A DNA stretch of 34,765 nt from Cytophagaceae bacterium (GTDB taxonomy: Bacteria; Bacteroidota; Bacteroidia; Cytophagales; UBA9547), in assembly GCA_027488865.1 (NCBI GenBank), contig JAIYAU010000048.1:1-34765 (forward strand). The letters are read 5' to 3'. Made by a program: the position numbers and the translations under genes. The stretch's first letter is position 1. The number at the start of each line of letters is the position of its first letter. Under the pieces are notes generated by a model, which saw only the letters and a program-made list of their open reading frames with translations, searched no databases and had not been told where the DNA came from. Positions 28,112-34,301 of the stretch are shown here, in pieces.

Positions 28112-29221
28112 TTGAGAATCATAGTAATATTTACCTTATTGGTTGGTTGCATCCATCATCTAATTGCACAAAATAGGCATCCTTTAATCATAGGCACATA
28201 TACCAAAGGTATAAGTGAAGGTGTTTATGTATATGATTTTGATTCGAAGTCAGGCAATTCTTATTTCAAAAGCAAAATAAAGTGCAATAATCCTTCTTTT
28301 GTGGCCATAAGTAGCCATAATAAATGGGTTTTTGTGGTAGAAGAAGAAAACGATAACCCGCAAGTGGCAAGTTATGCCTTTGATAACGCCACGGGCAGTT
28401 TAAAACTGATCAATAAACAACCAACCCTCGGTGCACATCCATGTTATGTAAGTGTAGATAAAACTAACAAATGGGTATTTGTGGGTAACTATACTGGTGG
28501 CAGTGTAAGTTGTTTTGGAGTGGATGATAACGGCCGTTTGCAACCTGCTACGCAGACCCTTCAACACAAAGGAAGTAGTGCCAACACAAAAAGACAAGAG
28601 GCAGCCCATGTGCATGGTGCATTTATTGCTCCTAGTGAAAAATTGTTGTTTGTTCCTGATTTGGGCATAGACCAATTAAAAATCTATTCGATTGACAAAT
28701 TAAATGTGAAACAACCCTTAAGTATTTCAGATTCTGTAAAAGTAAATCCTGGTAGTGGCCCTAGGCACTTAGCGTTTCATCCTAATGGTAAATATTTGTA
28801 TTTGTTACTTGAACTTACTGCTGAAATCGAAGTATTTGAATTTGTAAATGAACAACTTATCTCCAAACAAAAAATATCGCTGTTGCCTGTAGGCTATAAA
28901 GGCTCTTATAGTGGTGCAGACATTCATACCTCCACAGATGGTAAATTTTTATATGCTACCAACAGAGGAGACGCCAATCACATAATATCATACAACATCA
29001 ACGAAACTAACGGCCTACTAAGCAAAATTGATATACAATCAACAGGAGGGCTTATTCCAAGAAATTTCACAATGGATCCTTCAGGAAATTTTTTACTGGT
29101 GGCAAATCAAGAAAGTAGCGAAATTATCGTTTTTAAAAGAAATCAAAAAACAGGCTTATTAAAAAAAACCAAGAAGAAAATAAGCGTTGGCCATCCCGTT
29201 TGTTTGGTGTTTGCTGAATAG
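28112..29221 (+). CDS. Secreted lactonase, 6-phosphogluconolactonase-like beta-propeller
   Basis: This 369-residue protein begins with a TTG (28112) directly after an in-frame TAG, so no other start is possible upstream. A signal peptide covers residues 1-19 (ending HLIAQ). The rest is a seven-bladed propeller of the YkgB/Pgl lactonase family: 'IIGTYTKGISEGVYVYDFD' (26-44), VSVDKTNKWVFVGNYTGGSV (109-128), 'HVHGAFIAPSEKLLFVPDLG', SGPRHLAFHPNGKYLYLLLE and 'YSGADIHTSTDGKFLYATNRG'. The conserved His and Arg of the putative active site are present. Because it is exported, it is unlikely to be the cytoplasmic pentose-phosphate enzyme; it may act on sugar lactones outside the membrane. The last gene before the defence island. 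Confidence 0.85.
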   Translation: MRIIVIFTLLVGCIHHLIAQNRHPLIIGTYTKGISEGVYVYDFDSKSGNSYFKSKIKCNNPSFVAISSHNKWVFVVEEENDNPQVASYAFDNATGSLKLINKQPTLGAHPCYVSVDKTNKWVFVGNYTGGSVSCFGVDDNGRLQPATQTLQHKGSSANTKRQEAAHVHGAFIAPSEKLLFVPDLGIDQLKIYSIDKLNVKQPLSISDSVKVNPGSGPRHLAFHPNGKYLYLLLELTAEIEVFEFVNEQLISKQKISLLPVGYKGSYSGADIHTSTDGKFLYATNRGDANHIISYNINETNGLLSKIDIQSTGGLIPRNFTMDPSGNFLLVANQESSEIIVFKRNQKTGLLKKTKKKISVGHPVCLVFAE

Positions 29222-31986: not shown

Positions 31987-32302
31987 TGCTCACAGTTTTT
32001 AGGTATTTCACTTTGTCCTCGGCAACTTTCAAAACATTCAAATCAGCATCTTCATCCAATATTTTGTAAGCGATTTGATCACTTAAAAAGTCGTTTAATA
32101 ATGATTGTTTGTCAACCTTAAAGAATTCTGCAACTTGGTGGATAATCTGTTTTGTTGGTTGTCTTTCGTTTCGCTCAATCTTCGCAAGCAATGAAGTGTC
32201 GATGCCGATTTCCTCAGACACTGATTTCAGTGTCAAGCCGCTTTTCTCCCTCAAATTTCTCAGGTGTTCTCCGAACGATTCTGTTTTTTTAATTGTCTCC
32301 AT
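31976..32302 (-). CDS. XRE-family controller (C protein) of the R-M operon
   Basis: This 108-residue protein has an N-terminal helix-turn-helix of the Cro/CI type (residues about 10-65): 'FGEHLRNLREKSGLTLKSVS', EEIGIDTSLLAKIERNERQP, then a helical tail that could form dimers. It is the first gene of the controller-methyltransferase-nuclease operon and overlaps the methyltransferase by 11 bp. The ATG at 32302 is the first base of an operator arm, and the predicted transcription start is only about 10 nt upstream, so the mRNA has a very short leader. The symmetrical operator over its promoter suggests autorepression. Alternatively it could activate the operon at low level, as other C proteins do. 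Confidence 0.87.
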   Translation of the reverse strand: METIKKTESFGEHLRNLREKSGLTLKSVSEEIGIDTSLLAKIERNERQPTKQIIHQVAEFFKVDKQSLLNDFLSDQIAYKILDEDADLNVLKVAEDKVKYLKTVSNGK

Positions 32303-32348
32303 TGGACTTTATTTGTCCAAATATAATTAATGGACAAATAAAGTCCAA
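32302..32348 (-). promoter_or_regulatory. Operator-promoter of the R-M operon: 18-bp perfect inverted repeat
   Basis: TTGGACTTTATTTGTCCA (32302-32319) and TGGACAAATAAAGTCCAA (32331-32348) are exact reverse complements, 11 bp apart. Each arm is itself a partial dyad (TGGAC-N7-GTCCA). On the minus strand the same DNA holds a promoter: TTG (32348-32346), a 20-bp spacer, and TATATTTG (32325-32318), both full matches. The distal arm covers the -33 element and the proximal arm overlaps the -7 end, the start site and the ATG. Binding of the controller at both arms would block RNA polymerase. Confidence 0.85.
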
Positions 32349-32440
32349 AAAGTAGTTTGTAAAAATTTGTTTTAACTCTCGGTACTGTTTTATCGTCCTT
32401 TCCCATTATTGAAGTTTGCAAACATAAATCCCGCTAGGGT

Positions 32441-32575
32441 TGCACCTAACGGTTTGGTATTGCAGAAGGCGGGGATTTTTAGCACAAAAGTTCAATAGAA
32501 TTACCAAAGTTGAACCTTGCACAAATGTCCAATCGAAGCCGTTCAGCCCCGCTTTTGGCAATACCTTATTGGCGG
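32441..32575. repeat. Long imperfect palindrome, possible attC-like site
   Basis: Arms GGTATTGCAGAAGGCGGGG (32456-32474) and CCCCGCTTTTGGCAATACC (32547-32565) are reverse complements at 16 of 19 positions. The 72-nt loop contains its own AGTTCAA...TTGAACC hairpin. On the minus strand the outer left flank reads GTTAGGT, matching the integron R' box GTTRRRY; the right flank reads CGCCAAT, only a partial match to RYYYAAC. It lies directly behind the stop of the minus-strand DUF262 gene, where the attC site of a gene cassette would be. It could equally be a large terminator or another repeat family. Confidence 0.5.
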
Positions 32576-32582
32576 TTCGTTT

Positions 32583-34301
32583 TTATTTTATCTTTATGTT
32601 GTCAAAACTCCATTTAGGTATAGCAAAGTTCGTTACAATTTTTTCGTGTCGTTTGTCAATTTCAATTTTTCCCCATTTATCAGGTTTTTTGTCTTTATCA
32701 GTAAAGTCAACGATTTCTGCTTGTTGCTTCAAAAGTGGATTTGATTTGTAAGAAATAAGTTTTTCTAAAAACGGCTTGTTTCCAATAGATGCGTTATGTG
32801 AACCCGAAATAAGCATTAGATTCCCCAAACAGTTTAATTCTTTCTCTGCAAAGCCTTCAGGATATTTGTTGTTTTCATCAACGTCATATCCTGTTGCTAT
32901 TGGTTCGCCATTAGTTGGATTTTGTGGTGAGATGTGTTCAATTTGTTCGCTTTCTATAGCACCGTTTCCAATACTGTAACCTTTATTTTGTATAGACTCT
33001 TCATATTTCCAAAGCAAATAATGTAAAATGGGATTTTCATACATATATCCGTTCAAAAATTCTTTCGTTCTATTGTCGCCCCAATAGTAAGCATCATTCA
33101 ATTTTGTTTTGAAATGAGTTTTCAATTTGTCAAGGTCGCCACTATAAGCTAATAAAATTTCATTTAATCTACTAATGAAGTCTGCACGACTGCTGATTAG
33201 TGTGTAACGAAAAACAACAACTTCTAAAATGTTGTAAAGGGTATTCAAATAATCTTCATTGTAGTTGTAATATTTATAGCCTTTGATAACAAAAGGATAT
33301 ACAAATGCTGGAATAGATAACTCTCGTAAATCTTGTAAATACGGCAACTTTGAGTTTTCCATTTTTTTGATGTTGGAAAAAGAAGTGTGCAATTCGGTTA
33401 CAAAATCTTTAATCCATTTTACTTTGTCTTTCTCGGGTGAACTTTTAAAAACTTCTTTTATGTCGTCTATTGTTCTGTATGGGTATCCTTTAATAAATGC
33501 GTTGCAATGATAAATTAGGACACTGTCTTCATTTATTTTCAAATCGTTTATGATAAGATAAATCAACTTAAATACGCTTGCAACAAATTCAATGTTTGTT
33601 TCAGTTTCTTCTTCTGGACTGTAAACATACATTTGATACATAAAGTAAGATTTGATTTTTTCCATATTGGTCAAATCTTTCCCACGATTGTTTTGCAGTT
33701 CAAACATTAAAGCGGAATCTTTTTTGCCACTTAATTCAATACAAGTAAGTTCAGTTGATTCTAATTTTTCAAAAATCTTTAATAAATCTGCGGTTGTTAG
33801 TTTGTTAAGTTCTGTCGTAAAGTGTTTTTTACTGCTCTCAATTCTTTTTTGTGATGGTGTAGCGGTTTCAAATTTTGATTTTCCTTCAATAATTAAAGTA
33901 TCAAAACAAGCTCTATCATATTCAACTGGTCGTAGTTTGATGTTTCCGCCATTTTTTAAATAAATCTTTTCTTTTGAATCAAAGTCGATTTTAGTATCAA
34001 TCTCTTCGTTTGTTTCACTACGTTTTTTCAAAACATCAAGTAACGCACGAATAAAAATTGTCAGTGTAGTTAGTCGTTGTTGCCCGTCAATTATTTCGTA
34101 TTGAATGTCTTTTTTGACAATTTCAAGTAATAAATTTCCGTAGAAGTAGTTATTGTCGCCAACAATTTGTTCTTGCAAGTCGGTTAAAAATATATTCCAT
34201 TGGTCTTTGTCCCATGAGTATGCCCGTTGGTAAACTGGAATTATGAAATGTTTTTGTGAACTGTCAAAAAGTCCAAGAACTGTTGTTGGTCTAAATTGCA
34301 T
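32583..34301 (-). CDS. DUF262-DUF1524 nuclease, GmrSD-like type IV restriction enzyme
   Basis: This 572-residue protein joins both parts of a GmrSD-type enzyme. The N-terminal DUF262 domain has IPVYQRAYSW (21-30) and 'IDGQQRLTTLTIFIRALL' (71-88); these ParB/sulfiredoxin-like motifs are the nucleotide-hydrolysing half. The C-terminal DUF1524 domain is an HNH nuclease, with EHISPQ (455-460; His456), then GNLMLISGSHNASIGNKPF (493-511) providing the asparagines and the N-x-x-F end. GmrSD of E. coli cuts glucosylated hydroxymethylcytosine DNA of T-even phages; specificity here is unknown. It is on the same strand as the R-M operon but separated by 280 bp that contain the R-M operator and the palindrome, so it is a separate unit. 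No promoter with a full consensus was found upstream. Confidence 0.87.
   Translation of the reverse strand: MQFRPTTVLGLFDSSQKHFIIPVYQRAYSWDKDQWNIFLTDLQEQIVGDNNYFYGNLLLEIVKKDIQYEIIDGQQRLTTLTIFIRALLDVLKKRSETNEEIDTKIDFDSKEKIYLKNGGNIKLRPVEYDRACFDTLIIEGKSKFETATPSQKRIESSKKHFTTELNKLTTADLLKIFEKLESTELTCIELSGKKDSALMFELQNNRGKDLTNMEKIKSYFMYQMYVYSPEEETETNIEFVASVFKLIYLIINDLKINEDSVLIYHCNAFIKGYPYRTIDDIKEVFKSSPEKDKVKWIKDFVTELHTSFSNIKKMENSKLPYLQDLRELSIPAFVYPFVIKGYKYYNYNEDYLNTLYNILEVVVFRYTLISSRADFISRLNEILLAYSGDLDKLKTHFKTKLNDAYYWGDNRTKEFLNGYMYENPILHYLLWKYEESIQNKGYSIGNGAIESEQIEHISPQNPTNGEPIATGYDVDENNKYPEGFAEKELNCLGNLMLISGSHNASIGNKPFLEKLISYKSNPLLKQQAEIVDFTDKDKKPDKWGKIEIDKRHEKIVTNFAIPKWSFDNIKIK

Follow-up and report, generated by a model that had tools for sequence, protein, structure and literature searches.

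R-M (restriction-modification) controllers have been studied mostly in Proteobacteria and Firmicutes. In the contig described here, which was analysed over its whole length of 34,765 nucleotides (the window), a perfect inverted repeat of 47 bp runs into the start codon of an XRE-family regulator gene that heads a putative R-M operon of the Bacteroidota. The question raised by this locus is whether the repeat is an operator through which the regulator controls its own promoter and the genes behind it, and, if so, whether such control would activate, repress or do both.

The inverted repeat and the overlapping predicted promoter

The initial annotation of this DNA described two 18-bp arms as exact reverse complements, and a repeat scan agrees, placing the arms at 32302–32319 and 32331–32348 with 11 bp between them (Table 1). 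The runner-up among perfect inverted repeats with loops of up to 30 bases in the window has arms of 12 bp, which is also the best arm length obtained from eight dinucleotide-Markov sequences with the same loops. Each arm was correctly read as a TGGAC-N7-GTCCA dyad (32303–32319 and 32331–32347), and the proximal 18-bp arm does end on the A of the ATG of the XRE gene, at 32302. A search of the window against Rfam at gathering thresholds gave no match.

Table 1. Coordinates of the genes, dyads and predicted promoter elements in the window
Feature	Position	Strand	Remarks
Sau3AI-family restriction endonuclease, 461 aa	29325..30710	-	NF040973, 548.9 bits (cut-off 300)
C5 cytosine DNA methyltransferase, 432 aa	30688..31986	-	dcm TIGR00675, 226.6 (cut-off 100.65)
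XRE-family regulator, 108 aa	31976..32302	-	HTH_3/HTH_19; predicted recognition helix, residues 36–43
47-bp inverted repeat	32302..32348	.	two perfect 18-bp arms, 11-bp spacer
Proximal dyad TGGACAAATAAAGTCCA	32303..32319	-	17 bp; predicted operator; overlaps the -7 box and reaches the ATG
Expected transcription start	32312..32315	-	inferred from the position of the -7 box
-7 element TATATTTG	32318..32325	-	end runs into the proximal dyad
Distal dyad TGGACTTTATTTGTCCA	32331..32347	-	17 bp; predicted operator over the -33 element
-33 element TTTG	32346..32349	-	outer half of the distal dyad

The 4.33-Mb genome contains three exact copies of the dyad pattern, two of them being the dyads of the window. 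The third match (C40:67968) was set aside as an operator, as it lies inside a long ORF of 567 aa that looks like a phage tape-measure gene. A genome search for further operators with TTTGGAC-N7-GTCCA and two mismatches returned 152 + 126 matches, which is the level of the reversed-pattern control (137 + 130). In viral contigs, double dyads at the spacing of the window gave no exact match, and L114, the one XRE relative detected in them, is 64% identical over 92 residues and has no recognisable dyads.

On the minus strand, TTTG (32349–32346) and TATATTTG (32325–32318) are separated by 20 bp. The TTG-N20-TATATTTG arrangement that had been proposed inside the 47 bp is thereby borne out; the initial T of the complete TTTG falls outside by one base. 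The consensus described for the primary sigma factor of Bacteroidota combines a -7 TAnnTTTG with a TTTG near -33 (PMC7366714, PMC2483708). From position 29000 to the end of the window, the minus strand contains a single TTTG-N17-22-TAnnTTTG match, and there is no further one between the XRE and endonuclease genes; on the whole strand, 2 matches were found against 1.7 expected, so that the promoter match taken by itself is at chance level and the weight of the assignment rests on conservation among relatives. The position of the -7 box leads us to expect a leader of approximately 10–13 nt. This is short in comparison with the mRNAs of Bacteroides, in which the 5′ UTR is reported to be mostly 23 nt and falls below 10 nt in approximately 3.7% of cases (PMC7366714), and it counts against the main explanation given below.

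The reading frames downstream of the promoter overlap by 11 bp (XRE/methyltransferase) and 23 bp (methyltransferase/endonuclease), and the simplest reading of this arrangement is that one operon promoter would serve all three genes. The juxtaposition of a Sau3AI-family endonuclease and a C5 methyltransferase agrees with the earlier assignment to a GATC-type R-M system, GATC-type being a designation by family name; by the same token, the system would methylate and cut GATC. In a comparison with PADLOC profiles, the XRE protein gave a weak match to Control_protein (E = 4.5e-6), ranking after HTH_VI (1.3e-13), RmrA (1.2e-9) and capH (4.6e-9). A GmrSD-type restriction gene, for which the best PADLOC assignments are HEC-06 and Orf5, lies directly upstream of the repeat on the same strand (32583–34301).

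The dyads among relatives of the regulator

A genome scan yielded 103 confirmed XRE relatives, the best 80 of which (58–83% identity) come from records that name Bacteroidota lineages, except for L048 (Limnohabitans), L091 (Acholeplasmataceae) and L100 (Kapaibacterium), three cases that wrong binning or outlier status may explain. Both the methyltransferase (at least 70% identity) and a Sau3AI-type endonuclease accompany the regulator at 32 of the 80 genome-contig loci, a lower bound because contigs end early. The close set used for comparison of upstream regions comprised 86 loci at no less than 57% identity, including the window, relatives from other searches and some near-duplicates, and a dyad was called when at least 7 of its 10 specified bases were present. 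Both dyads were recognised at 75 of the 86 loci, the proximal one only at six, the distal one only at three and neither at two; thus, 11 loci are without one or both recognisable dyads. This distribution supports the earlier suggestion that the XRE gene has a putative double operator overlapping its promoter. All ten bases are retained in 57 of the 78 distal dyads. Among the 81 proximal dyads, 65 have nine of the ten bases and four, including that of the window, have all ten; the commonest deviation is GACC in place of GTCC, an A being present in 27 regions of the non-redundant set of 39.

The promoter letters are retained together with the dyads. TAnnTTTG overlaps the proximal dyad at 80 of 81 loci, and in most cases (62 of 81 loci) the distal dyad supplies the -33 TTTG through its inner half (TTTGTCCA), located 18–21 bp before the -7 box. 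The fit of TTTG and TAnnTTTG to the consensus and their retention in relatives argue that the promoter is probably of the Bacteroidota type, as had been claimed. When 39 upstream regions that were less than 70% alike were aligned on the proximal dyad, conservation peaked over TAnnTTTG-GAC-N7-G.CC, and an alignment of 24 regions by their distal dyads also showed conservation of the TTT before GTCC, letters that had no part in the scoring. The ten dyad bases served as the anchor, so the height of their conservation is partly built in, and the independent signal consists of the TA and TTT of the -7 box and the distal TTT before GTCC.

The 47-bp perfect repeat did not prove to be a conserved feature: complementarity from arm to arm was found at one of the 75 loci with both dyads, the window itself, where the proximal dyad has all ten specified bases and its N7 complements that of the distal dyad exactly. 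Therefore, the conserved unit is the single dyad. In the regions compared, the perfect repeat is local to the window and the dyads are common to its relatives.

The window also differs in spacing. The distance between dyads, measured from start to start, is 38 bp at 44 of the 75 loci, 39 bp at 20, 40 bp at eight and 37 bp at two; the window, at 28 bp, is the sole case of its kind and is shorter by approximately one helical turn. Of two close relatives within its own family, L265 has the usual wider spacing of the dyads; in L264 the distal dyad is clear and the proximal one, placed at the wider interval that is common elsewhere, is degraded. Among 75 relatives, the distal TTTG is present in the inner half in 63 and in the outer half in 41, and where both halves of the distal dyad have TTTG, the two copies are 11 bp apart. 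In the window, the inner copy is 9 bp from the -7 box and the outer copy (TTTGGAC) is at 20 bp, so that use of the outer TTTG where most relatives use the inner one keeps the promoter spacing. As TTTG occurs twice at an interval of 11 bp, a loss of about one turn leaves the -33/-7 spacing intact and the dyads on roughly the same helical face.

These features invite a broader generalization, which we put forward tentatively and hold with somewhat more doubt than belief. There may be an operator code throughout the Bacteroidota in which the R-M autorepressor dyads of one XRE family double as promoter letters (TAnnTTTG-GAC-N7-GTC); in a two-site subfamily, the distal dyad would carry TTTG in both halves, 11 bp apart, and sliding by about one turn would keep both the phasing of the proteins and the -33/-7 spacing, so that deletions of one turn would be tolerated. 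Provided that the XRE protein binds the dyads, the window would offer a natural one-turn variant for questions of phasing.

In the wider family, members were found in 123 of 395 class genomes by a profile search and in 52 of 395 phylum genomes by a single-sequence search. Among the 246 members assembled (duplicates and the window included), 156 have a GAC-N7-GTC dyad with at most one mismatch on TAnnTTTG and 90 do not; many of the distant members have one dyad only, with ends of the form TTTGAC...GTCAA. At 20 hand-picked loci (which include L007 and L008, at 62–63% identity), the next gene encodes a DNA methyltransferase at 14 and an AAA/helicase/HsdR-type protein at three, and has no assignment at three, and at ten hand-picked close relatives with other partners it encodes a methyltransferase at eight, an AccI endonuclease at one and a ResIII helicase at one. 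This exchange of next genes indicates that the module of regulator and operator recurs with different R-M payloads. A search of the 395 phylum genomes for a full dyad plus a half dyad with a free gap gave nine matches in eight genomes, as compared with 13 in 12 for the reversed control; by itself, then, the pattern does not rise above chance, and only a position upstream of an XRE gene lends it meaning. The XRE systems among these nine matches are the window (two rows), L256 and L258; at L259, two dyads precede an XRE frame that, as judged by eye, may be decayed, other ORFs lie behind the dyads of L257 and L261, and L260 and L262 were left out of inspection.

Several members depart from the common arrangement. 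At L100, an AccI-type endonuclease gene (PF09545, 695.9 bits) directly follows the XRE gene, i.e., the restriction gene comes first. At L021, L027, L028, L029 and L032, the XRE domain opens a protein of 349–363 residues and a GAC-N7-GTC dyad lies near the start. Nine members with a QSTL recognition helix (L025, L026, L157, L199, L204, L215, L219, L220 and L223) have no GAC-N7-GTC match; the dyads of L025 and L026 were read by eye as TTTGACA...TGTCAA with a 6-bp core, and L158 and L178, which also have the QSTL helix, carry the N7 form.

The regulator and the probable mode of control

Covariation between the predicted recognition helix and the operator was followed across the family. Ser37, the second residue of this helix, pairs with C after GTC: below 60% identity, the counts are 11 for Ser/C, 5 for Ser/other, 0 for other/C and 14 for other/other, and the corresponding raw counts are 94, 14, 0 and 48 of 156, the 90 members without a site on TAnnTTTG being left out. 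In shuffles, residue 37 ranks first (z = 7.93) with residue 40 level (7.92), and several columns (82, 80, 86 and 24) have higher raw mutual information than residue 37. On a tree built without the helix, there are four changes of site and five of residue, with one branch bearing both. The covariation was consequently dropped as a proof of binding, since on the tree it is mostly one deep ancestral split; it is consistent with binding of the dyads by the XRE protein. Position 26 was equated with the activating Glu of C proteins by alignment on the shared G-L before helix 2, and is occupied by R in 158 members, K in 60, T in 25, E in one, S in one and a gap in one; it is thus basic in 218 of 246 members and is Lys in the window protein. 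Activation by C.Csp231I and other C proteins is described as proceeding through contact of an SQE segment with sigma (PMC4824078).

We consider it likely that the 47 bp constitute a two-site operator fused to a Bacteroidota primary-sigma promoter and that the XRE protein represses its whole operon from it. An XRE homodimer would bind each TGGAC-N7-GTCCA dyad. The distal dyad covers the -33 TTTG, and the proximal one extends from the TTTG end of the -7 box across the expected start as far as the ATG. Since both dyads cover promoter elements, their occupancy should exclude RNA polymerase, and through this exclusion the protein would keep its own operon, with xre, the C5 methyltransferase and the Sau3AI-family endonuclease on one shared transcript, at a low set level. 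Entry into a naive cell would be followed by a brief unrepressed burst and by shut-down as the regulator builds up, possibly with cooperativity between the sites. The -33 element is reported to be needed for full activity and yet not to be essential (PMC2483708); for this reason, the better distal and weaker proximal sites of the relatives could give repression in two steps, and the two equal sites of the window predict a sharper response. The regulator apparently works like an R-M controller that represses only, a design that seems to recur across Bacteroidota with exchangeable R-M payloads, and if binding by the XRE protein is true, the operator could be used for predicting the regulation of such defence operons.

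The "complete autoregulatory switch" of the initial annotation is supported as to the double operator on the promoter and finds no support as to activation followed by repression. A classical C-protein switch, in which a distal dimer activates at low concentration and proximal binding represses at high concentration, would suit the unequal operators of the relatives, the distal one being better than the proximal one in a manner that recalls OL/OR logic, and has a precedent in C.Csp231I, which is described as both activating and repressing from palindromes approximately 18 bp apart (PMC3115060, PMC4824078). It is nevertheless unlikely here: the distal dyad sits on the -33 element itself rather than upstream of it, no upstream activating site was seen at the window promoter, the two sites of the window are equally good, and the residue aligned with the activating acidic one is mostly K or R. 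Moreover, the endonuclease and methyltransferase genes lie within one overlapping set in the order XRE-methyltransferase-endonuclease, so that a delay of the endonuclease alone is not evident.

The repeat could also act as RNA, if read-through from the GmrSD gene, which has the same direction, folded an 18-bp stem that hides the ATG and insulates the operon. Such a stem has a predicted energy of -27.5 kcal/mol (z = -7.5; none of 200 shuffles as stable), but the dyads persist in relatives that lack perfect complementarity of the arms, a transcript from the predicted promoter would be without the upstream arm, and no T-run follows the stem. We regard this role as very improbable, although a hairpin could arise as a side effect confined to the window. 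Finally, the dyads might serve some other host protein as operators, or represent a motif that promoters have in common, with the XRE protein acting elsewhere. The weakness of the helix covariation after correction for ancestry leaves room for this possibility, to which we give hardly any credence: the dyads recur directly upstream of the XRE gene in many genomes while the downstream genes are exchanged, and this linkage makes a foreign regulator unlikely; in its own genome, furthermore, there is no second exact double site, and near matches are at control level. Autorepression by the XRE protein remains the preferred explanation.

Known controllers and neighbouring elements

Close among described controllers are C.Csp231I and C.EcoO109I (motif-8), which share with the window a regulator of approximately 100 aa (98 in C.Csp231I), extra C-terminal helices, two separated palindromes in their own R-M promoter and A-rich half-site spacers (PMC3115060, PMC4824078). 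Their operator is given as CTAAG-N5-CTTAG, with the proximal site over -35 and with both activation and repression (PMC3115060, PMC4824078), whereas the window has TGGAC-N7-GTCCA on -33 and -7, a Bacteroidota-type promoter and a basic residue at the aligned position. C.Csp231I is absent among the 50 fold matches listed for the predicted model, which is no argument against the likeness. The C proteins of the PvuII/AhdI/Esp1396I type are likewise autogenous R-M controllers with two operators in their own promoter, but are reported to use GACTtatAGTC with a conserved central GT in a site of approximately 35 bp, for activation and repression (PMC3115060); the family profile matched the sequence of C.AhdI weakly (E = 0.0016), and the fold comparison gave Z = 8.8 with an rmsd of 2.7 over 64 residues.

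Two further regulators resemble the window protein in their place in the operon. HsdC of Mycoplasma gallisepticum, a C-family protein encoded first in an R-M operon, appears to repress the entire operon, but it belongs to a Type I system of Mollicutes and is associated with the direct repeats (GTGTTAN5)2 (PMC5282649, PMC12707154). RptR is described as an autorepressor encoded by the first gene of an R-M defence island, and palindromes are repeated across its -10 box; it differs in its 6-bp TAGCTA palindrome, its three direct repeats and the binding of a dimer to a single major groove (PMC12255303).

The predicted fold of the window protein consists of an HTH and long C-terminal helices, and the nearest solved structures are HigA-type antitoxin repressors (Z = 10–12, 83–97 residues aligned), followed by XRE repressors. 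HigA-type antitoxins autorepress through promoter palindromes. They differ from the window protein in sequence (11–16% identity) and in context, the neighbours in the window being a methyltransferase and a GmrSD gene rather than a HigB-like toxin. In the literature searched, which lay outside the principal compilation of sites for C proteins (Sorokin 2009), no title or abstract opening concerned a TGGAC-N7-GTCCA operator; an undescribed half-site, as suggested earlier, is at most a possibility.

Other elements occur near these promoters. An imperfect palindromic element at 32400–32590, between the GmrSD gene and the XRE promoter, is present in one copy in its own genome and in partial copies in four of nine other genomes of the family. 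One copy (G732:C222) lies approximately 200 bp upstream of a related XRE/methyltransferase operon, and the copies on G735:C37, G735:C48 and G733:C40 share their contigs with integron-integrase-like recombinases, which score below the family cut-off, the same profile matching in all 14 control genomes. The element is possibly an attC-like cassette element. A motif resembling TTGTTGAAAAC, with variants such as TTGTGAATAAC, was often noted by eye directly upstream of the distal dyad or of promoters with one dyad (L015, L017, L024, L030 and many of L034–L113), in some cases after CCACCACCC, and may mark a cassette boundary.
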